Below the pieces are notes generated by a model, which saw only the letters and a program-made list of their open reading frames with translations, did not search any database and was not told the DNA's origin. 64,000 nucleotides of DNA. It comes from Anaerolineae bacterium (GTDB taxonomy: Bacteria > Chloroflexota > Anaerolineae > 4572-78 > J111). A program made the translations under genes and the position numbers. Shown piece after piece: positions 5,262 through 61,046 of this stretch (the first letter of the stretch is position 1; every line of letters starts with the position of its first letter). The stretch spans positions 62,001 to 126,000 of the forward strand of contig JAKLJP010000003.1 of assembly GCA_023151115.1 (NCBI GenBank). The letters are read 5' to 3'.

Positions 5262-5326
5262 GCCGGGATTAGGAGATTGGGGGATTTTTTCATAATTTCT
5301 TCTTCCCCTAATCCCCTAATCCCGGC
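5262..5326. repeat. Tandem-word hairpin (GGGATTAG type) between hupL and protease
   Basis: Inverted arms GCCGGGATTAGGAGATTGG... and ...CCCCTAATCCCGGC, built from repeats of a word like GGGGATTA, around a T/C-rich loop. It lies 35 bases after the hupL stop. The stem could slow transcription or protect the upstream mRNA, but it belongs to a dispersed repeat class seen at many gene ends here. Confidence 0.8.
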
Positions 5327-10197: not shown

Positions 10198-10306
10198 TAG
10201 CAGAAAATATGTATTTTTTAACCCCGGTTATATCCAAATAGCAACTTGGGTTATTAGCCTCTTGTCCCAAACTGATGCGAAGCGCGTGGGGGCAAGAGGA
10301 ATCGTG

Positions 10307-10354
10307 GGAACTCGTAGGAACTCATGGAACTCAGCAGTAGTTCCTACGAGTTCC
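10307..10354. terminator. Perfect hairpin after the response regulator; tandem-word type
   Basis: Arms GGAACTCGTAGGAACT and AGTTCCTACGAGTTCC are perfectly complementary (16 bp) and made of the repeated word GGAACTC; more copies of the word follow on the right (to about 10373). It lies 26 bases beyond the stop of the response regulator gene and before the hydrogenase promoter. It may end transcription of the two-component pair, although no U-run follows on the minus strand; it also fits the dispersed hairpin class. Confidence 0.6.
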
Positions 10355-10379
10355 GATGAGTTCCCTCAGTTCCTATTTT

Positions 10380-14852: not shown

Positions 14853-14873
14853 ACGCGCTTACACCTTCAATCC

Positions 14874-14964
14874 GATTTACGATTTACGATTTACAATTTA
14901 CAATTTACGATTGGAAGGGCTAAACCTCAGCCTAATCGTAAATCGTAAATCTAAAATCGTAAAT
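14874..14964. repeat. Tandem-word hairpin (GATTTACG type) between nfnA and nfnB
   Basis: Left arm repeats GATTTAC or AATTTAC five times; right arm repeats AATCGTA/GTAAATC three to four times in inverse orientation; the loop is about 25 bases. It fills the whole gap between the nfnA stop and the nfnB start region. Confidence 0.85.
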
Positions 14965-24600: not shown

Positions 24601-25792
24601 CCCCGCCACCACTATTCGCCGTGTTATTCATAAACAACGTATCTGTCAGCGTTAATACGTTGTTGGCAAAAAGTCCACCGCCATTATTAGCCCTGTTGTT
24701 CTCAAAACGGCCGCCGTTCAGTGTCACCCCACCATTTACAGATACTCCGCCGCCATTCTGCTGGGCTGTATTGCCGATAAACTGTGTACCAGTTAGTATT
24801 AGAGTGCTACCACTATTTAACCCACCCCCATTTAATGTGGACGCTCGATTGTTCTCGAAATAACCCTCATTCAGTATTGCTGTACTATTTGCATACACCC
24901 CACCGCCCGTGTTTGCTGTGTTACTAATGAACTGCGTACCACTCAATGTTAAGGTGGTGTTGGCAAAAAGCCCCCCACCATTGTTACTAGCCGTGTTATT
25001 CTCAAAGCGACCACCGCTCAGCGTTACTGCATTATTTGCACGCACCCCACCGCCATTGGTTGCCGTGTTGCTAATAAACTGTGTACCACTGAGCGATAGT
25101 GTATTATTGGCAAAAAGTCCACCCCCATCATTAGCGGCTCTGTTGTTTTCAAAGCGTCCCCCACTCAGCGTCGCTATACCATTCACTTGCACTCCACCCC
25201 CACCGACACCCGCCGTGCTGCTCAGGACGTTTACATTAGTTAAAGTTAGATCACCTCTGGCAAAAATGCCACCGCCGGAATCGGTGACATTTCCATTTTT
25301 CACCGTCAAATTGATCAAGGTCAAACTGACGCCGTTGGTGGTGTGGAAAACACGATCAAGGGTGTTGCCATTGATAATTGTCGTTGCCGCGTCTGCGCCG
25401 CTGATGATTAGATCGGCGGAGATGTCAAGGTCGCCCCTCCTGTTATCATCTTCATTCGCGTTAGTACGAGTGATGGTATACGTTCCAGTGGGAAGGATGA
25501 TGGTATCCAACCCGCTGCCGGCTGGGCAACCATAAACGGGCGTGTCGGTATTGGCTGCTTGGATAGCCTCACGCAACGAGCATTCATTCGGGCCGCCGCC
25601 AAACTGGTCTTGGGTAGTGGTGACGGTAATATTGACAGCTCGAGCTAAACTGAGGAATAACAGGTGGATTGCCAGAGCCAAAGTCAGGGCAAGAAGGATG
25701 GAAGGCAGAAGAGAGAGCAGATGTTTGTAGAGATACTCCCGCTTTATGAGCCGGGCGGGTGAGTGAGTAAGTTTTGGCTTGAGTGATAACAT
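21695..25792 (-). CDS. Large secreted surface protein: CSLREA, beta-helix, ASH-like and Calx-beta-like domains
   Basis: 1365 residues. Hydrophobic export segment at about 24-50. CSLREAIQAAN at 71-81 marks the CSLREA domain, followed by a right-handed beta-helix; about 206-455 holds five two-coil repeats alternating GGRFENNxA and GTQFISNTA with GGGLFANN turns. Then come an ASH/HYDIN-like Ig domain (about 665-770), a Calx-beta-like domain and several further Ig-like repeats (TVTLASADLTEG, LTFTPLNWxxxQTVTVTGVDD), an SLYLPIIF motif, and a CARDB-like C-terminus. Such proteins act in adhesion or as cell-surface filaments; the ligand is unknown. The ATG follows GAGGA. The neighbouring secreted gene is divergent. 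Confidence 0.85.
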   Translation of the reverse strand: MLSLKPKLTHSPARLIKREYLYKHLLSLLPSILLALTLALAIHLLFLSLARAVNITVTTTQDQFGGGPNECSLREAIQAANTDTPVYGCPAGSGLDTIILPTGTYTITRTNANEDDNRRGDLDISADLIISGADAATTIINGNTLDRVFHTTNGVSLTLINLTVKNGNVTDSGGGIFARGDLTLTNVNVLSSTAGVGGGGVQVNGIATLSGGRFENNRAANDGGGLFANNTLSLSGTQFISNTATNGGGVRANNAVTLSGGRFENNTASNNGGGLFANTTLTLSGTQFISNTANTGGGVYANSTAILNEGYFENNRASTLNGGGLNSGSTLILTGTQFIGNTAQQNGGGVSVNGGVTLNGGRFENNRANNGGGLFANNVLTLTDTLFMNNTANSGGGARVNNAATLNGGRFENNQAATSNGGGLYVGGALVLTGTQLISNTAAQGGGVFHTSGAARVINALFARNAATSNGEALNLRSLSETQILHATIASPTQVNGAAIYVANGTVNITNTIIVSHTTGIQRAGGTVNQNYNLFWGNANNTTGTVGGGTGSITGNPAFTDPTTDDYHLTAASVAIDRGVNTGIATDFEGQARPLGNSFDLGYDEMPPIVEIAVLGNGQVIADGDASPSTADHTDFGDVLVANGAVIHTFTISNTGLSDLNLTGLPPITITGPAASDFSLIVGPTTPVDPNGTTTFQLRFDPTAVGTRTATITIANDDTDENPYDFVVQGVGIVPLIQFDQAVPYNDNEDAGVSNVVTLRRSDDTSFTSTVQVTITGGSAGDGSDYDNSGFPLIINFDPGVVIQTISVPIIDDAMDENIEDITFQVSSLSNAVIGTQYTATLEIVDNDSAGITVSPTSLTVSEPNNSAIFNIRLTSEPTATVTINLSSDDLTECVVPASASLTSLNWQTGVTITVTAVDDLIFDGPQNCIIHSTVSSSDANYNGQTVVEVSVSVNDNDIPGITVASSTGLTTTEAGGTAAFGMVLNTEPTAPVTVTLASADLTEGIANPTSLTFTPLNWNSPQTVTITGVNDDVDDGDTPYTVIINPAISNDSTYNNLNPDDVNLTNLDDDTAGFMVSTISGDTHESGATATFNIRLTSQPLADVTIPVVSSDSTEGTASPANLIFTPLNWHTLQTITVTGVDDLDSDGNIAYTIQTNPTTSSTDPLYHHQTPVNVAVVNHDNEALAPTTQSLYLPIIFSRSVAGFDLVVDNLNVGGDGVSVTIKNIGNTPVVDAFWVDVYLNPATPPTHVNQRWNDVGTQGLVWGVIGAALPLDPDETLTLTINDTYYSARRSHFTTPLIIGSRIYAQVDSVNLLTNYGGVRESHEINHEPYNNIYQTVAEVEVDPVTAGVEVLQANTSNLPSR
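24430..25180 (-). repeat. Coding tandem repeats of about 145 bp in the surface protein gene
   Basis: Five repeats, each coding two beta-helix coils (GGRFENN... then GTQFISN...). They are similar enough at the DNA level for unequal recombination to change their number. Some units have mutated, for example GYFENN and LFMNN. Confidence 0.75.
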
Positions 25793-38941: not shown

Positions 38942-41900
38942 TCAGGGTAGGGGTTTCAGACTGTAACAATTAGTTCTTTCTATTTCCAGGGCTAACTTTA
39001 CCCGCTCAAATTCGGCTTCAAGCTCGATCAACTTGGCGGTTGTTCCCTCTAATTGGCCGCTCCTACCCATACTTTCTAACTCCTCGCATAACCTTACAAA
39101 ATGCATCGCGCCCAGGTAAGCGCTGCCCGGCTTGAGGGTATGGGCGGTGCGGTACAGAGTGGGCGCATCGCCCTGTTGGACGGCAGTCTGAATTTGGGCC
39201 AATAGAGGAACCGCCGACTCAAAATAGATGCCAATCAGTTCCACCATCATCTGCGGAGCCTGCTCGCCCAGCAGTTGCTGCAAATCGGCCAACACCTGAG
39301 GGTCAAGCGCCGGAGCAGCCTCATTGGGTTCAGGTTTTGCGCCATTCCCGTTTAGCTGGCTTAAATTTTGTACTTCATTGGGAAGCGCGGTTAGCTCACC
39401 TGGCTTCCCTGCCGGTTGGCAGCGCCGCAGCGCCTCGGCTAAGGCCTCTGGGCGGACCGGCTTACTGATATAATCATGCATGCCGGTATCGAGGCAGCGT
39501 TCTCGGTCTCCTTGCAAGGCATTGGCCGTCATGGCGATGATCCAAGGGCGCTGGCCGGCCGGCCATTGCGCCTGAATGTGGGCGGTGGCTTCCAGGCCAT
39601 CCATTTCAGGCATTTGCAGATCCATCAGCACCACATCATAGGGCTGGCGCTGCAACGCCTGCAACACTTCCAAACCGTTGGCAGCCACATCGGCCCGGTA
39701 GCCCAGCCGTTCTAACATGCGCAAGGCGACTTTTTGATTGACGACATTATCTTCGGCCAATAGAATACGGAGCGGATGATCTTGGCCTAACCCAGTTTCC
39801 AGGGCTGCCGGCTGGGTCCCGTTGGTCGCCTTTTTGACCGGCTGATCCTGAAAAACGCCCAGCAGGGTATTGTATAACTGCCAGGGTTTGACCGGCTTGG
39901 TCAGAAAAGCCGCAAATTCCACCGGGGCCGCCGGCTCATTTCGCTCGCGGTAGCCCAGCGAGGTCAGCATCACCAAAGGCATTTTCGATTTTTGATTTTC
40001 GATTTTCGATTGAATCTCCCCCCTTCTCCCCCGCTCCCCCGCTCCTCTGCCTTCTTCGAGGCGGCGGATTTCAGCGGCCAGAGTCAAGCCGTCCATTTCC
40101 GGCATTTGCATATCCAAAATAGCCAGGTCAAAGGAGTCGCCTCGGCCCAGCCAGGCCAGGGCTTCCGCCCCAGAGGAGGCGGCGTAAGGGAGCATACTCC
40201 AGGCCTGGGTTTGGCGGGTCAAGATCAGGCGGTTGGTGGCGTTGTCGTCCACAATCAGCACCTTTTTGCCGCTTAATTCGGGCTGCTGGCCGGCCAGATA
40301 CACCCGCGGTGGGTTGGGGGCGGCTGCGGCGGTAATCGTAAAGTGGAAGGTCGAGCCTTCGCCCGGAATACCCGCGCTTTCAACCCACATCCGGCCGCCC
40401 ATTATTTCGCTCAGGCGTTGGCTGATGGTCAGCCCCAGGCCGGTGCCGCCGTATTTGCGCGTGGTCGAAGCATCCACCTGGCTAAAGGAGCGAAAGAGCC
40501 GGTCCATGCGCTCGGCGGGAATGCCCAGGCCGGTATCGCGCACGGAAAAATGAAGGATGAAGGATGAAGGATGAAGGATGAGAGATGAGCTACTTTCATC
40601 CTTCATCCTTCTGCCTTCCGCCTTTACTTCCACCACCACCTCGCCCCGCTCGGTGAATTTGACGGCGTTGTTGAGCAGATTGACCAGGATTTGGCGCAGG
40701 CGGGTCACATCGCTGATTATGCCGGAGGGGGTTGAGTCTTCAATCATATAAGCCAGTTCCAGTTTCTTTTCAGCCGCTTTAACGGCCACCAAGTCGAGCG
40801 CCTCCTCGATACATTGGCGCAACTCAAAGGGCTGCTGTTCCAGTTCCAGCTTGCCGGCTTCGATCTTGGAGAAGTCAAGAATATCGTTGATAATCGTCAG
40901 CAGGGTATCGCCGCCGGTGCGAATGGTTTCGGCAAAATCGGCTTGCTCCGCCGACAGCGGTGTATCCAACAGCAAGCTGGTCATGCCGATAATGGCGTTG
41001 AGCGGGGTACGGACCTCGTGGCTCATGTTGGCCAAAAATTCGGATTTGACCCGTGTGGCCGCCTCAGCCGCGTCTCTGGCTTGTTGTAGTTCCTCTTGTG
41101 TCCGCTTGAGGCTGGTAATATCGTGAATATAACCGAGGATGCCTTGCACCTTGCCCGCCTGATCCCGATACGGAATTTTGACAATAGTTTGCACCCGTCG
41201 CTTTCCGGCCACAACCAATGTTTCCTCGGCGATAACTTTAACCTCATTGGTCTCGATCACCTCATCGTCGCTGGGCCAGAAACCCACGATCCCTTTGTCC
41301 GGGTTGCCCTTGACAATCTCTTCAGGAAAGCCCAGTTCCAAATCAGTCTTGCCTATAAAATCTTCAACCCTTAAGTTCATGGCCCTGGCATGACTCTCAT
41401 TAACTAAGCGATAACGGTGGTTCAGGTCTTGCAGATAGATCCAGTCGGGGGTGGCATTAATAATGGTGTGTAACAAATTGCGTTCTTCTGCCACAAGCAT
41501 TTCCATTCGTTTGCGTTCGGTAATATTTTCATGGGCAATCACCACCCGGATAGGGTCTGATCCCTTGAAACGAGTCACTTTACCCATAAACCAGCGTTGT
41601 TCGTGGGGCGAATGGCAGGGGTACTCAAGGGAAAATTCATCTTGTTCGATCCGCATAACTGCCCGAAGACCGGCAGCGAATAGCGACGCTTCAGCCGTAT
41701 CTTCGCCTTGAGCCAGATCGCATACAGCCAGATAGTTGGCCCCTTCGGCCACATTTTGGGTTACAGGGGGGTTATTGCCGGCAAAGGTTCGCCAGGCTTG
41801 ATTCACGGTGATGATGGTTCCTGTCTCATCCAACACACAAATATGAGCCGAAAGCGCATCCAGGGTAGATTGAACAAAGCTTTGCAACTCCTGTAGGGCC

Positions 41901-44524: not shown

Positions 44525-44580
44525 GAGAGGTATCCTTTCCTTATTATAGGTGTCCAGAAAAATTGTTTCTCAACAATCAA

Positions 44581-44637
44581 GGTAGCAGGGTAGCAAGTAG
44601 CAGGCGGCAGGTTTGCTACCTTGCTACCTGCTACCTG
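44581..44637. repeat. Tandem-word hairpin (GGTAGCA type)
   Basis: Left arm GGTAGCAGGGTAGCAAGTAG; right arm GCTACCTTGCTACCTGCTAC; about 10-base loop. It shares its word with the arms around the four-helix-bundle gene at 52745-53243. It lies between the response regulator stop and the phosphoesterase start. Confidence 0.85.
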
Positions 44638-44700
44638 TTTTAGCGGCGAAAACTTTTCTGGAGCACTATATTAACCGCCCCTTCAGGCGGATGTTGGGCT

Positions 44701-45959: not shown

Positions 45960-46048
45960 AGTAGACGGTAGACAGTAGACGGTAGGCAGGGAAATCATAC
46001 AACTTTGCGACCCTGCACCCCTGCACCCCTGCTACCCTGCTACCCTTG
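45960..46048. repeat. Tandem-word repeats (GTAGACG and CCCTGCTA types)
   Basis: Plus strand: GTAGACGGTAGACAGTAGAC, a short spacer, then CCCTGCACCCCTGC and CTGCTACCCTGCTACC words. The two arms are only partly complementary (GTAGGCAGGG against CCCTGCTAC). It directly follows the stop of the eight-PAS kinase. Confidence 0.65.
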
Positions 46049-50617: not shown

Positions 50618-50694
50618 AAACAAGGGGTTAGGGGTCGGGGATTAGGGGTCAGATAAACCCCAACCCCTGGCCCCCGACCCCCAACCCCTGGAGG
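50618..50694. repeat. Tandem-word hairpin (GGGGTTAG type) in the uvrB leader
   Basis: Left: GGGGTTAGGGGTCGGGGATT; right: CCCCAACCCCTGG, CCCCCGACCCCCAACCCC. The stem would lie in the leader of uvrB, just before its ribosome site GGAGG. Confidence 0.8.
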
Positions 50695-50700
50695 AAAACT

Positions 50701-52749
50701 ATGCCCGCATTGCAAGTGGTTTCCGATTATCAGCCCACCGGCGACCAGCCCCAGGCGATCAAAGAGTTGGTTGAAGGGCTTGAAGGCGGTTTGAAGCACC
50801 AAACGCTGCTGGGCGCGACCGGAACCGGCAAAACCTATACCATCGCCAAGGTCATCGAGCAGGTACAGAAACCAACGCTGGTGATGGCTCACAACAAAAC
50901 CCTGGCCGCTCAACTGTACAGCGAGTTCAAAGAGTTTTTTCCGAACAACGCCGTGGCTTATTTTGTCAGCTATTATGACTACTACCAGCCCGAAGCCTAC
51001 ATCCCTCGCACAGACACTTTCATCGAGAAGGACGCCCAGATCAACGACGAGATTGACCGGCTGCGCCTGGCCGCCACCACCGCCCTCTTCTCCCGGCGCG
51101 ATGTGGTCATCGTTGCCAGCGTCAGCGCCATCTATGGCCTGGGCAGCCCGGAGGATTACGGTCAGGTGGTCATCAATTTTAAGGTGGGCGACCTGCGCAA
51201 GCGCGACAAGATACTGCGCCATCTGATTGACATCCGCTACGAACGCAACGATTACGACCTCAAGCGGGGCACGTTCCGCGTGCGCGGCGACACGCTGGAG
51301 GTTATGCCCGCTTACGGCGAGCAGGTCTACCGGATCGAGTTCTTTGGCGACGAGATTGAGCGTATCACCGAAGTCAACGCCCTGACCGGCGAAATGGTCG
51401 CCCGGCACACCAACCTGGACATCTACCCGGCCAAACACTTTATTACGCCTCAGGAAAAGCTAGAAGAAGCGCTGGTGGACATTGAAAATGAGCTAGAAGA
51501 GCGCCTGGCCGAACTGCGAGCACAGGAAAAACTACTGGAAGCGCAGCGGCTGGAGCAGCGGACCCGCTTCGATTTGGAGATGCTGCGCGAGGTTGGCTAC
51601 TGCTCCGGCATCGAGAACTACAGCCGACCGTTGAGTCGCCGCGCTCCGGGCAGCACCCCCTGGACTCTGCTCGACTACTTCCCCGACGATTATCTGATGG
51701 TCATTGACGAGAGCCACATGTCTATCCCCCAGATTCGGGGCATGTACTTTGGCGACCGCAGCCGCAAAGAGGTGCTGGTTGATTACGGTTTCCGTCTGCC
51801 CAGCGCCCTGGACAACCGCCCACTCAACTTCGAGGAGTGGGAGGATCATATCAATCAAATTATCTACACCAGCGCTACCCCCGGCCCCTACGAACTGGAT
51901 CACAGCCAGCAGGTGGTCGAGCAAATCATCCGGCCCACCGGCCTGATTGACCCCGAAGTGGAAGTCCGCCCCATTAAGGGTCAAATTGACGATTTAATTG
52001 GCGAAGTCAACCGGCGGGTCAGGGCCAGCGAGCGAGCGTTGATTACCACCCTGACCAAGCGCATGGCCGAAGACCTGGCCGATTATATGATGGAATTGGG
52101 CATCAAGGTTCATTACCTCCACAGCGACATCCAAACTCTGGAACGAGTCGAGATTTTGCGCGATTTGCGGTTGGGCATTTATGATGTGGTGGTTGGCATC
52201 AACCTGTTACGCGAGGGCCTGGATTTGCCGGAGGTATCGCTAGTGGCGATTTTGGACGCCGACAAAGAGGGCTTCCTGCGTTCCAGACAGGCCCTCATCC
52301 AGACGATTGGCCGGGCCGCCCGGCATGTCAACGGCAAGGTACTGATGTATGCCGATAAAATTACCGACTCGATGAAGTTTGCGATTGATGAGACCAACCG
52401 CCGCCGGGCCAAGCAGCAGAACTACAACGAGGAACACGGCATCGAACCGCGTTCTATCATCAAACAAATTCGAGACCTGACCGAAGAAGTCGCTTCCACC
52501 CGCGAGGAGGCCGGGCGGGAGAAGATGCTGGCCGAGCGAAGAGCGGCCTACAACATCACCGGGGCGATGCCGGCTCACGAAATCGAGCATTTGATTGAGC
52601 AGTTGGAGAAGCAAATGAAGGCCGCCGCCGCCGAGCTTGAGTTTGAAAAAGCGGCTCTCCTGCGCGACCAAATCGCCGAACTGCGCGGCCAGTTGCAAGC
52701 CATTCAAGATGCCGCCGATACCCGGCCTGCGTGGGAGAAAATCAGGTAG
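50701..52749 (+). CDS. uvrB: Excinuclease ABC subunit B
   Basis: 682 residues, complete. DNA-damage recognition helicase of nucleotide excision repair. Walker A GATGTGKT at 38-45; the damage-verifying beta-hairpin region [11 protein letters not shown] at about 92-102; DESH at about 340; helicase motif QTIGRAARH at about 538; and a C-terminal UVR domain (about 620-660) that contacts UvrC. ATG with GGAGG 8 bases before. Its stop codon TAG (52747-52749) lies within the left arm of the repeat described next. Confidence 0.98.
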
Positions 52750-52795
52750 CAGAGTCACAAGGTAGCAGGGTCGCAGGGTCGCAGGATTGCAAGGG
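52745..52795. repeat. Left tandem-word arm (GGTCGCAG type) before the four-helix-bundle gene
   Basis: Units such as GGTAGCAGG, GTCGCAGG, GTCGCAGG and ATTGCAAGG follow each other directly. The right arm at 53190-53243 has the same word in inverse orientation. Confidence 0.85.
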
Positions 52796-52806
52796 GCCAG
52801 AGGGAT

Positions 52807-53177
52807 ATGGCTGGATATGAGGATATGGAGCTTTATAAGTTGGCTAAGCAAATGGCTGTTGAGATTCACAAAGTGACATTGAATGAACTGCCAAGTTCGA
52901 GATGTATGAACAAGGCTCACAAATTCGTCGCTCCAGCAAATCTGTGGTAGCTAACTTTGTCGAGGGATATGGGCGGCGGCAGTATAAGGCCGAGTATACC
53001 AAGTTTTTAACCTATGCCCTGGCTTCTTGTGATGAAACAAAAGCTCATCTTGAGTTATTGCACGAAACAGAATCATTACAAGCTGAAAGGTTCCAATACT
53101 TTTATGGTAACTATCGCAAAATTGGAGCAATGCTCTATAATTTACGCCAATCCATTATCAAGGGTTCCGCCTATTAA
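52807..53177 (+). pseudogene. Four-helix-bundle protein (23S rRNA intervening-sequence family), frameshifted
   Basis: From the ATG at 52807 the frame codes MAGYEDMELYKLAKQMAVEI and ends soon after; from about 52890 the next frame carries the rest: [20 protein letters not shown] then EGYGRR and a four-helix pattern to 53177. A loss of one base near CCAAGTTCG (family members read LPKFEMYEQ) explains the break. Members of this family are encoded in rRNA intervening sequences and resemble the Avd accessory protein of diversity-generating retroelements. The gene is enclosed by inverted tandem-repeat arms. Confidence 0.8.
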
Positions 53178-53189
53178 TTTTACCTGTAG

Positions 53190-53243
53190 CCCTGCATCCC
53201 TGCGACCCTGCGACCTTGCGACCTTGCGACCTTGCGACCTTGT
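53190..53243. repeat. Right tandem-word arm (CCTGCGAC type) after the four-helix-bundle gene
   Basis: CCCTGCATCCCTGCGACCCT then four copies of GCGACCTT. Inverse of the left arm 52745-52795. Confidence 0.85.
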
Positions 53244-53258
53244 TTTTGAGAAGAGTTC

Positions 53259-53483
53259 ATGAAGATCTTCAACATCGTTTTAGCTGCTTTTGTGCTGCTG
53301 TTTGGCTTGCGGATGGTGCTTACAGCGGTGCAAACAGCTATCAGCGGCAAAATCCTGGTGCGGCAGGGGATTCGCTCCAAATGGCAGCCGGCGGCAGTTC
53401 GCAGCGATGTCTGGAAATCCGCCATTCGGGACGGGTTGATGGGGTTGTTGTTGATTGTGTTGGGGGTGGTACTGATTTTTTAA
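53259..53483 (+). CDS. Small two-helix membrane protein
   Basis: 74 residues with a hydrophobic N-terminal helix (about 4-24) and a C-terminal helix (about 57-74); a short basic loop lies between. Family not recognised. It begins soon after the repeat arm and precedes the DUF2330 gene by 61 bases. Confidence 0.65.
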   Translation: MKIFNIVLAAFVLLFGLRMVLTAVQTAISGKILVRQGIRSKWQPAAVRSDVWKSAIRDGLMGLLLIVLGVVLIF

Positions 53484-56141: not shown

Positions 56142-56255
56142 GTAACTGCTCAGACATGTCATTTCGACCGAAGGGAGAAATCCCTCAAGTCTATGTAGCG
56201 CCCTGGGGATTTCTCGGCCTATGGCCTCGAAATGACATGGGGGCTGAGCAGTTAC
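56142..56255. repeat. Palindromic element, family A, full 114-bp copy
   Basis: Ends GTAACTGCTCAG and CTGAGCAGTTAC (with TT/AA beyond); inner arms CATGTCATTTCGACCGAAGG and GGCCTCGAAATGACATG. Same length as 20812-20925. It lies between the thioesterase terminator and the ftsH stop. Confidence 0.88.
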
Positions 56256-58323: not shown

Positions 58324-58353
58324 AAACGTTGAACGTTAGAACGTTCAACCGTT
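58324..58353. repeat. Tandem-word hairpin (AACGTTG type) at the PASTA kinase stop
   Basis: AACGTTGAACGTT and AACGTTCAACCGTT face each other across AG. It starts right at the stop codon of the PASTA kinase and shares its word with 17012-17047. Confidence 0.8.
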
Positions 58354-60292
58354 ACGGCACAACCTGAATGGTCCGCAAAATAAGCGCGCCCAAGTTGTCC
58401 GGTTGGCCTCGACCCGGCTCAAAAATAGGTAGGCGAGCTTTGGTATCAGCCGTGTAAAAACCGATGCGGATTTGATAATCGCCGGGCGCCGTCGTGGGCG
58501 GAATGGGAAGCTGATAGGGATCAACAATTAAATCGCCTACGCCCCAATTGCTGGTTGGCCTGACCCCGCCCTGCGGCTGGGTGTCAATTTGAGAAACGAT
58601 CCCGCCCTGGGGTGTGGTTAGGTGAATAAAGAGATTATAGTTAGCCGTAGGCAGCGTGACCGCCTGCCAGAAAAAAGTTAGGTTAATCGCTTCCCCGGCC
58701 TTGTACTGAATGCGCGGAATCTCATAGGCGTTGAGCACAATTTGCCCGCCCAAGTTGGCCCCCACCGGCACCCGCGAGCCGCTGCTGACCACCAGCGTCA
58801 CCAGGGTTCGATTAGCCACCAGCGAAGTGGCCGGCGGGTCTTGATTAATCACGTTGCCGGGCGTTTCGGCGCTCCAATCCTCATACTTTTGCACCACCAA
58901 ATCCAGGCTTTCCAGGCGTGGCTGGGCCTCCTCGTAGGGCAGACCAATCACATCAGGCACCTCGATCAGCGGCGGCCCCTGGCTCAACACCACGCCGACG
59001 GTTGTACCGGGTGTTACCGGCTGACCGGCTTCGATGGATTGGCGCACAATGGTAAAGGCCGGCAGATCAGGATGTGGCTCCTCCCCTTCGACCACCATGG
59101 TCAGGCCCAGGTTTTGCAGGGCCGAACGCGCTCCATTTTCCTCCAGGCCGATGATATAGGGCATCGCAATCTGGCCCGGCGCGGGCGTGGGCGGTCCTGA
59201 TGAATTGCCGGCCGGTTCGCGGAAATAGGCGGCATAAACGGCTACAAACAAAGGGATCAGCCCCATAATCGCCAGGATCGCCAGAATACCCAGTACAAAC
59301 ATCAGCGTATCAAAGCTGCCTTTTTTCTGGCGGGCCGCCTGAGCCGCCGGAACGTAGCGGCGAGCCGGGGGCGGCGGAGGCGGCGCCGCCGAGGGGGATA
59401 TAATTTTTTGCACCGGCGAACCCACCACCGATGAAATCGGGGCGCTCAGCCCGGCCTGGCTCAAGCCACCTTGCTGGAACAGGGTCAAGGCTTCGCGCAG
59501 ATGATCGGCGGTGAGGAAACGCTCGTTGATATTTTTGGCCATGGCCGCGTCCACAATCCGGGCCAATGGTTCGGGGATGCGGGGATTGAGCTGGTCAACC
59601 GGGATATGGGCTTCGTAGATTTGCTTGCGGGCTACCTCCTGATCATCAACACCAACAAAAGGAACTCGCCCCGTGAGCATTTCATAGAGAATAATACCAA
59701 TCGCATAAACGTCGGTAGCCGGCAGCACCCGGTCACCGGCGGCCTGTTCTGGGGCAAAGTAGGCCGGAGTGCCCCAAACGACTTCACCCGCGTCCATGGC
59801 GCTGTCGCCCAGGGCTTTGGCCAGGCCGAAATCGGTCACTTTTATTTGATTGTTAGGGGTAATCAAAATATTGCCGGGCTTCAAATCTCCATGCACCAGG
59901 CCGGCCCGGTGGGCCGTACCGACGGCGAAGCAAATCTGGGTTCCATACTCGACGGCTTGATCAACTGGTAGCTTACCCTGCCCATCCAGCAGCGTCCGCA
60001 GATCGGACCCGGCGATCCACTCCATGACAATATAGGGCCGGTTTTTATCCTGCCCAAAATCGTAGACGGCGACGATGTGGGGGTCGCTCAGTCGAGCGGC
60101 GCTTTGGGCCTCGCGGTGGAAATTGACCAAAAAGTTGGGATCGCGGGTATACTGCGGGCGCAGCGCCTTGACCGCCACCAACCGGCCCAGGGCCATATCC
60201 TGGGCCTGATACACTTCGGCCAGACCACCTTCGCCGATTTTCTTGATGAGCTGGTAGCGGTCGTTGAATACTACCGGGAGTTGCAGTTCCAT
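58352..60292 (-). CDS. PASTA-domain membrane Ser/Thr kinase (PknB/StkP-like)
   Basis: 646 residues. Kinase domain about 12-270 with GEGGLAEV, HGDLKPGN (His-Gly-Asp in place of the usual HRD), DFGLAK and APEQ; membrane helix at about 330-355; at least two PASTA repeats (about 385-520), which bind muropeptides in homologues; then a beta-rich domain (about 525-646) not recognised. The HGD variant lacks the Arg that couples activation-loop phosphorylation, so it may be regulated differently. Start ATG 60290-60292; alternatives lie just upstream. Promoter at 60397-60425. It lies directly upstream of ftsH, in the same direction. Confidence 0.92.
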   Translation of the reverse strand: MELQLPVVFNDRYQLIKKIGEGGLAEVYQAQDMALGRLVAVKALRPQYTRDPNFLVNFHREAQSAARLSDPHIVAVYDFGQDKNRPYIVMEWIAGSDLRTLLDGQGKLPVDQAVEYGTQICFAVGTAHRAGLVHGDLKPGNILITPNNQIKVTDFGLAKALGDSAMDAGEVVWGTPAYFAPEQAAGDRVLPATDVYAIGIILYEMLTGRVPFVGVDDQEVARKQIYEAHIPVDQLNPRIPEPLARIVDAAMAKNINERFLTADHLREALTLFQQGGLSQAGLSAPISSVVGSPVQKIISPSAAPPPPPPARRYVPAAQAARQKKGSFDTLMFVLGILAILAIMGLIPLFVAVYAAYFREPAGNSSGPPTPAPGQIAMPYIIGLEENGARSALQNLGLTMVVEGEEPHPDLPAFTIVRQSIEAGQPVTPGTTVGVVLSQGPPLIEVPDVIGLPYEEAQPRLESLDLVVQKYEDWSAETPGNVINQDPPATSLVANRTLVTLVVSSGSRVPVGANLGGQIVLNAYEIPRIQYKAGEAINLTFFWQAVTLPTANYNLFIHLTTPQGGIVSQIDTQPQGGVRPTSNWGVGDLIVDPYQLPIPPTTAPGDYQIRIGFYTADTKARLPIFEPGRGQPDNLGALILRTIQVVP

Positions 60293-60329: not shown

Positions 60330-60383
60330 TTAGGGATTGGAGATTAGAGATTGGAGATTCTAGAATCTCCAATCTCTAATCTC
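60330..60383. repeat. Tandem-word hairpin (GATTGGA type) in the PASTA kinase leader
   Basis: Arms GATTAGAGATTGGAGATTC and GAATCTCCAATCTCTAATC are a perfect 19-bp inverse pair with a two-base spacer; further copies of the word lie to the left. Confidence 0.85.
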
Positions 60384-60425: not shown

Positions 60426-60538
60426 ACGGAGGGATTCCTGATTTCTCTTTCTCATATTTGTCGAACCTTCGTAATCCTCCTAAAATTGGGATAGAATCTC
60501 GATCCGTTGAAACTCATTAATTAATGAGAGATTGAGCA

Positions 60539-61046
60539 GTGGCAGATATTTCATTCGACGTGGGCGGGTGTAAGTTTAATTATCGAGTTGCCGCCATCAT
60601 CGAGTGCCATCAGCGCTATCTTTTCACCACTGCCCCAGGCACAGATTTTTGGTTCTTACCCGGAGGACGAGTCAAAGCCGGGGAGTCATCGCTGGAAGCC
60701 ATCAAGCGAGAACTACAAGAGGAATTGAGGCTAGAAAACCAGGTAATGCCTCTGGACAGTTGAAAACTTTTTCACCCTCCACAACGAAAATTTTCACGAG
60801 ATGAGTTTTTACTTTGCCCTGTCGCTTTCCCCAAATAGCGATCTAATTAGAGAAGAGGCATTTCTAAAAGAGCCAAATTGGGAGTTTCGATGGTTTAACC
60901 TTGAACTGATCCAAAGGTTTGATTTACGGCCTCAATTTTTGAAATTTAAGCTACCCTTGACCCAACAAGGCTTCCAACCCATTATTTTCAAACAGGAAAA
61001 ACAGGAATATCTTGAGTTTAATCTGGCTTTCAATAGAACCCTATGA
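60539..61046 (+). pseudogene. NUDIX hydrolase, frameshifted
   Basis: The first frame (GTG start at 60539) gives a NUDIX box GRVKAGESSLEAIKRELQEE, then stops at 60761-60763. A +1 frame from about 60755 continues the same protein without a break in sense: VENFFTLHNENFHEMSFYFA and on to 61046. One extra base (or two lost) explains the pair; sequencing error is possible. The box has Arg in place of the last Gly. Its product, if the frame were intact, would hydrolyse a nucleoside diphosphate derivative. The last four bases overlap the DUF983 gene, as in an intact operon. Confidence 0.8.

Follow-up and report, generated by a model that had tools for sequence, protein, structure and literature searches.

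Inverted tandem-word arms around an S23-family four-helix-bundle gene: a candidate mobile element with lineage-specific words

Introduction

Genes of the S23/IVP family are widespread and have, to our knowledge, no known function. Short tandem heptamers in bacterial genomes are used for strain typing, and we know of no accepted origin for them; the STRR of cyanobacteria (Mazel 1990) are repeats of this kind. A PF05635 protein encoded between terminal inverted repeats, as in the element described here, is found in the intervening sequences (IVS) of 23S rRNA genes in Leptospira, Coxiella and others. The Coxiella IVS is classed as selfish in PMC4990558, where it is described as having an S23p ORF, a stem of terminal repeats and tandem heptamers, varying in number, just before the ORF, with an RNase III site at the first of them; the authors consider the S23 protein itself probably not expressed and expendable.

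In REPIN-RAYT systems, gene-less hairpin units are dispersed between genes and tied to a specific protein family, as described in PMC3116915. Heptamers of Xanthomonas and Nostoc lie near stop codons and in inverted pairs, and according to passages of PMC4692102, their positions are mostly conserved between two Xanthomonas species, which speaks against frequent movement, and they are generally not found with mobile elements, with none on Anabaena plasmids. The same passages draw no link from these heptamers or STRR to an S23 gene. The TAACTGA heptamers of Beggiatoaceae are intergenic tandem repeats present in several phyla, for which transfer is suspected by a mechanism that is not evident; they are described as directly repeated and located before start codons, a single inverted case aside, and the passages of PMC4679880 that treat them make no connection to S23 genes. 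Within the open-licence PMC literature, preprints aside, no title or abstract links S23 genes to word arms outside rRNA.

Results

An S23-family gene between inverted arms at the uvrB stop codon

The window, a stretch of 64,000 nucleotides from an Anaerolineae bacterium, contains a frameshifted S23/IVP four-helix-bundle (fhb) gene with inverted arrays of the word GGTCGCAG/GGTAGCAG on either side, located where uvrB ends in its stop codon (Table 1). Pairing of 52738-52794 with 53190-53246 extends over 57 nt at 81%, with a spacing of 395 nt, and the gaps between arms and gene agree to within a few bases with the 11 and 12 bases of the original prediction. The left arm had been predicted to start at the uvrB stop; the location is correct, but the TAG sits inside the first word, so that the arm overlaps the stop codon rather than merely following it.

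As had been proposed, this copy is broken, the gene being split over two frames. The second piece belongs to the PF05635 family, scoring well above the cut-off of 33.8 bits. The nearest relatives, in genomes G006 and G017, are also split over frames, and relatives at 78-84% identity are open frames in G001, G002 and G004. The flanking uvrB and 74-aa ORF are both protein-coding, and the element therefore does not share the rRNA-gene location of an IVS. Among the five ORFs scanned at 50-56 kb (uvrB, DUF2330 and others) no reverse transcriptase is encoded.

Table 1. Features of the window (positions in nucleotides from its first letter)
Feature	Coordinates	Strand	Remarks
uvrB, upstream neighbour	50701..52749	+	stop codon 52747-52749 in first word of left arm
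Left arm, tandem 8-nt words GGTAGCAG / GGTCGCAG	52744..52794	+	
fhb gene, 5' part	52807..52950	+	47 aa frame; alone without Pfam match
fhb gene, 3' part	52902..53177	+	91 aa frame; PF05635, 72.3 bits
Right arm, left-arm words inverted	53183..53243	-	
74-aa ORF, downstream neighbour	53259..53483	+	in G006 begins 13 nt past uvrB stop, no element between
Gene-less hairpin, window's own word	44581..44637	.	20 8-mers shared with G006 fhb C2:836870 arms
MITE-like repeat around 44581 hairpin	44545..44670	.	ends TATAGGTGTCCAGAAAA / TTTTCTGGAGCACTATA
Gene-less composite, one arm of GTAGACGG words, the other GGTAGCAG-type	45960..46046	.	like composites in G006, G013
Gene-less GGAACT-word hairpin	10297..10375	.	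best match G006 fhb C2:1457336 arms
Gene-less GATTTAC-word hairpin	14873..14964	.	best match G006 fhb C5:1147529 arms
Gene-less GGATGAA-word hairpin	40550..40611	.	best match G006 fhb C1:2037969 arms
Gene-less GGGATTAG-word hairpin	5262..5326	.	best match G016 and G002 fhb element arms
Gene-less AGGGGTT-word hairpin	50623..50688	.	best match G063 and G031 fhb element arms
Gene-less GGAGATT-word hairpin	60330..60383	.	best match G009 fhb C28:21026 arms

Matching arms accompany the gene family

Arms were scored by local alignment of the 200 nt upstream of a gene with the reverse complement of the 200 nt downstream, at a threshold of 30. The survey comprised 99 fhb loci from 38 genomes, the window's own locus being left out; these were the strongest matches together with loci chosen by place, rather than a random sample, with 73 loci from 12 genomes identified through the window protein and 26 from relatives of G006. 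The source sets were the PF05635 matches in the 12 genomes (114 among those listed) and 61 G006 relatives, 47 of which had a match. Matching inverted word arms were present at 61 of the 99 fhb loci compared with 5 of 267 control ORFs, and one of these five (L081:7615-7983) is an unmasked fhb gene. At least one armed locus occurred in 29 of the 38 genomes. By group, the threshold was reached in Chloroflexota (29/38), G006 relatives (19/26), Bacteroidales (6/12), Flavobacteriaceae (3/8) and Gracilimonas (4/10), and by none of the loci in Desulfobulbaceae (0/3) or the Bacteroidetes MAG G012 (0/2). The remaining 38 loci score below 30, and 26 of them also below 26, which counts against reading the unit as a mobile element. 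The best lag in the 122 arms is 7 in 101 cases and 8 in 16, and G exceeds C in the left arm, read on the gene strand, at 54 of 61 loci.

Arms are also found on cyanobacterial plasmids, where 44 records matched and 14 were examined, two being copies of one locus; 9 of the 13 distinct loci score at least 30. With the single query L090, tblastn gave no match to fhb genes on phages.

These genomes abound in word arrays and hairpins, and intergenic slippage might generate arrays everywhere, with fhb genes merely residing in such regions. The arms at one locus, however, match each other and not the arms of other loci, as indicated by the rarity with which flanks from different loci reach the threshold (6/688 pairs within a genome and 102/9014 between genomes). 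Dinucleotide-shuffled flank pairs did so once in 495. In addition, the words follow the protein, as set out below. We consider coincidence of this kind extremely improbable, and the controls with ORFs, shuffles and same-genome pairs refute it as a sufficient explanation.

Relatives have or lack arms and gene together

The comparison with relatives covered twelve loci, namely the window, L043, L045 and L101 (G006/G013), and eight plasmid loci. At 11 sites, the window's included, arms and gene are there together or missing together; these sites correspond to ten of the twelve compared loci plus site G, found en route. The uvrB site of the window is empty in G006, an Anaerolineales MAG (JABTUK010000002.1, locus L006) that is ~90% identical to the window where aligned, with only 13 nt from the stop to the next start. 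Likewise, uvrB and the 74-aa ORF lie close together without an element in G013, G015, G016, G002 and G021.

At site A (G006 C2:1143k), a full element is followed by a complete hairpin. In G013 this site carries a gene-less hairpin of the word of the G006 element, directly past a TAG stop, while in G017 it is empty and in G015 occupied by a hairpin of a different word. Site B is filled in G013 (C3:1416k), and G006 has no fhb element there. Eight sites with presence/absence are in named cyanobacterial plasmids (C, D, E, G, H, I, J and K). At site C, Trichormus variabilis (ATCC 29413, with an element that looks intact) is 428 nt longer than Nostoc linckia NIES-25 and N. carneum, the blast pieces being 98% identical, and Nostoc sp. 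C052 retains the left arm together with an apparent remnant of the 5' part of the gene. Sites G and H belong to one operon, in which the junction that holds an fhb gene varies from plasmid to plasmid; in pC052_B none does. The cleanest sites are the window, A, C, E, G, H and I; less clean are B (part of another repeat in G006), D (the spacer differs) and K (the tail of the upstream gene is displaced), and the comparison at site J rests on a plasmid that is 85% identical. The L045 site is filled in G013 as well, and the L239 (cas6/cas4) site has no clean empty counterpart in the compared plasmids.

In the clean insertions, the unit contains one ORF, the fhb gene, and thus not the recombinase of its own that an insertion sequence or transposon would carry. 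Inspection by eye revealed no target-site duplication of constant length; some sites show a short overlap (GTAA, ATTCTAR).

The left arm lies at stop codons

At 46 of 67 loci the left arm begins no more than 20 nt from a stop codon on the same strand, compared with a mean of 4.3 and a maximum of 10 in a shifted null (1000 shifts), and within 10 nt at 35 of 67 (null 2.0, maximum 7). In this position the unit would be readable through from the upstream gene. The neighbours are co-directional upstream at 52 of 62 loci (p 0.04) and downstream at 54 of 63 (p 0.015), relative to 102 of 147 control pairs. The empty uvrB site contains GGTAG, which is part of the word, and the empty sequence of site G contains ATTCTAG, which is near the complement of the word, suggesting microhomology between target and word at these two sites. 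The original prediction had pointed to arms being more frequent around this gene family than around other genes, to gene and arms varying together between relatives, and to insertion at stop codons; all three are borne out here.

On cyanobacterial plasmids, the fhb elements L234, L239 and L240 lie between cas6/cas4 and cas10/cmr3. A mobile unit would explain the presence of the family inside cas operons, and this location is perhaps why it appears in a CRISPR-linked survey, in the part of PMC10910872 that lists it. Separately, the fhb gene at L260 (Nostoc N6 plasmid pNPM1) is interrupted by a stretch with word arrays of the type of its own arms.

The word follows the protein lineage

Across 67 loci, word and protein are correlated with a Mantel r of 0.36, a value reached by 0 of 5000 permutations. 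Of 46 pairs of proteins at least 65% identical, five were dropped for a shared flanking gene within 1.5-3 kb; a word is common to 22 of the 41 others, as against 65 of all 2211 pairs. The plasmid set behaves similarly, with words in common in 5 of 5 pairs at least 65% identical versus 5 of 82 pairs below 50%. Related lineages can have related yet distinct words, as exemplified by the GTAGACGG and GGGAGTA types, whose proteins are ~67-75% identical. Among 60 pairs at least 65% identical, 15 had usable dS and yielded dN/dS of 0.05-0.20, and 45 were saturated at synonymous sites. The words have thus been kept while silent sites were randomised, which speaks for constraint on the word.

Word and protein covary, and the protein is under selection. 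The covariation could also arise if gene and arms were simply inherited together, with no recognition involved. Among the compared fhb loci, no two sites proved to hold near-identical copies; the copies are old, and movement would be rare or mostly between genomes.

Gene-less hairpins share the words of the arms

Ten arrays of the window were hand-picked from the TRF list, one of which (39981-40045) is no true hairpin. Nine of them have more 8-mers in common with known fhb arms than random stretches of the window (p 0.0005-0.0093), and for five of the ten the arms of G006 are the best or equal-best match; array 58325-58354 has no match to known fhb arms in this comparison. Gene-less hairpins therefore share sequence with the flanks of the partner gene, as in REPIN-RAYT. 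Besides the fhb loci, GTAGACGG hairpins occupy at least 19 sites in G013 and at least 31 in G006, both of which carry a GTAGACGG fhb element; among the matches listed there are none in G015, G016, G017 or G019. GTAGGGA-type matches, again among those listed, come from G013, G015 and G016, with none for G017 and G019. By eye, 21 GTAGACGG hairpins comprise 7 that are symmetric, 9 paired with another word and 5 with one arm, and the five GTAGGGA hairpins read were all symmetric. The gene-less hairpins with the word of a lineage are probably non-autonomous relatives of the full element.

Composite hairpins, pairing an arm of GTAGACGG words with one of GGTAGCAG words, are also seen at L208, L210-L212, L226, L227 and L230, as if halves of two families had been joined.

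For the window's own word, the co-occurrence of gene and hairpins is mixed. Rows of GGTAGCAG hairpins number 114 in G006, 30 in G017 and 16 in G013. None of the other 58 genomes has more than 3, and there a reversed control pattern gave up to 12 rows in one genome. Of the seven genomes with a window-type fhb gene (at least 60% identity), only G006 and G017 have many such hairpins and the other five had 0-2, while the 16 rows of G013 occur without a window-type gene. The fhb gene does not guarantee hairpins.

Fourteen of 19 GGTAGCAG hairpins fetched in G006 and G017 have both ends of a MITE-like repeat, and one more has one end. As most of the fetched hairpins lie inside this repeat, it explains much of the copy number of the word. 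The copy at 44545-44670 runs from TATAG..CCAGAAAA to TTTTCTGGA..CTATA with the GGTAGCAG hairpin in mid-repeat, and many copies are present in G006 and G017; the ends may be of the IS630/mariner type. The original prediction presented the window as holding a full element and its empty derivatives, with the hairpin at 44581-44637 as the example. This hairpin does have the word of the window arms, but it sits within the longer repeat with other ends and is ruled out as a simple empty derivative. In kind, the idea is upheld at site A, where G006 has the full element and G013 the hairpin only.

The MITE-like repeat raises the question of whether the unit moves by itself. Hairpins and gene might instead be carried by MITEs, plasmids and homologous recombination, with the fhb protein serving the host, for example by binding hairpins as transcript ends. 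The transport of GGTAGCAG hairpins largely by this repeat would fit, as would the location of hairpins at gene ends, several of them lying between the ends of two genes and having G-rich/C-rich inner stems, and the excess of co-directional neighbours over control. The window fhb element itself shows none of the ends of the MITE-like repeat, however, and its arms border on the stop codon and on the sequence found at the empty site. Moreover, one plasmid operon holds different fhb genes at different junctions, with sister plasmids lacking either. We regard passive carriage as rather unlikely, and favour a unit that is itself mobile.

Other repeats were noted in the window. A palindromic repeat of ~112 bp with TGTCATTTCGA lies at 56144-56255 and 2465-2580; the first copy is missing at that site in G006, which has dozens elsewhere. 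A 147-bp tandem repeat (24886-25171, 1.9 copies) is unrelated to the word arrays, and 544 bases (60498-61041) are missing at the corresponding G006 site.

The protein resembles S23 structures and Avd

Modelled with AlphaFold2, the G006 C2:1143k protein has four helices at a mean pLDDT of 96.2, and the PDB matches of the model are led by the S23 structures 2gsc (XCC0516) and 2rld, followed by Avd/DGR complexes (4dwl, 8ub7, 8ube and 8ub8). Within 44 fhb sequences, S48 and E78 are invariant and P31, Q41, R44, N52 and E55 nearly so. Pfam and NCBIfam recognised no catalytic family in the fhb proteins; the partner protein is a four-helix bundle and not the Y1 tyrosine transposase of REPIN-RAYT. The TIGR02436 cut-off is exceeded by all eight armed relatives examined, whereas the NCBI Avd model gives 24.7-39.2 bits in five of the eight, against a cut-off of 80, and is not among the matches listed for the other three.

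The kinship with Avd had led to the suggestion of a role in nucleic-acid-templated spread of the repeats. An fhb protein could assist, in the manner of Avd, a reverse transcriptase whose gene lies elsewhere, with the words copied from an RNA template. This would agree with the rank of the Avd structures directly behind 2gsc and 2rld, and with the higher frequency of RVT_1 matches among genomes that have fhb (25 of 47) than among those without (1 of 14), although this comparison does not control for genome size. It is difficult to reconcile with the 22 of 47 fhb genomes that have no RVT_1 match, some of them with 5-9 fhb copies, even if single absences are weak evidence in incomplete assemblies. 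Furthermore, G006 has a single RVT_1 match, and the fhb gene next to it lacks arms (score 14); the armed proteins fall under the Avd cut-off. Templated spread of this type appears improbable, and the suggestion is not upheld.

That gene, L060 (G006 C5:632896-633198), is a weak-scoring fhb directly after the RVT_1 match, and is probably the Avd of a diversity-generating retroelement.

Discussion

The arms, their link to the fhb gene family, the presence or absence of arms and gene as a unit, and the position at stop codons are established in this analysis, as are the covariation of word and protein and the selection on the protein, and there is good support for a mobile unit whose word arms are specific to the lineage. 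The window locus is probably a dead copy of such a small mobile element, composed of words, an fhb gene and the inverted words, with one word per lineage. Recognition of the word by the fhb protein is likely.

We propose that the unit consists of tandem 7-8-nt words, an fhb (S23/IVP, TIGR02436) gene and then those words inverted, and that it would land between genes, with the left arm mostly at a same-strand stop codon. The fhb protein, with its Avd/XCC0516 fold, may bind the hairpin into which the word of its own lineage folds, either in single-stranded DNA or in RNA, and carry it to a target with a stretch that resembles the word, such as GGTAG at the uvrB stop. Insertion could then be completed by a host polymerase and strand annealing. 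Slippage would lengthen the word arrays, and the two arms would stay alike through templating of one by the other while words drift between lineages.

A broader claim, for which we see even chances, is that these units represent a class of mobile DNA that lacks a recombinase of its own, in which a word-reading four-helix-bundle protein co-evolves with heptamer arms and also spreads gene-less hairpins in Chloroflexota, Bacteroidota and cyanobacteria, and of which rRNA IVS, STRR and the heptamers of Xanthomonas and Nostoc would be forms. If S23 genes and heptamers are halves of one element, both puzzles become testable at once, and this could account for short repeats whose nature has been a riddle to microbiologists for decades. 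To specialists, a mobile unit without a recognisable recombinase and with arms differing by lineage would, if true, be new.

The nearest known systems are the 23S rRNA IVS, in protein and arms, and REPIN-RAYT, in the way of working. The IVS reside in rRNA genes and are removed from the RNA after transcription, whereas the fhb elements lie between protein genes at stop codons and, unlike the IVS, have lineage-specific words and gene-less relatives. RAYT is a tyrosine transposase, in contrast to the four-helix bundle of fhb, which has no recognisable catalytic domain, and we know of no REP words that are tandem heptamers changing with the protein lineage. Avd of diversity-generating retroelements has a fold like that of the fhb protein but requires its own reverse transcriptase and a template/variable repeat, and the armed fhb proteins stay below the NCBI cut-off for Avd. 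On this comparison, the element is best filed under the S23 protein family, rather than as an IVS, a REPIN, a diversity-generating retroelement or an insertion sequence.
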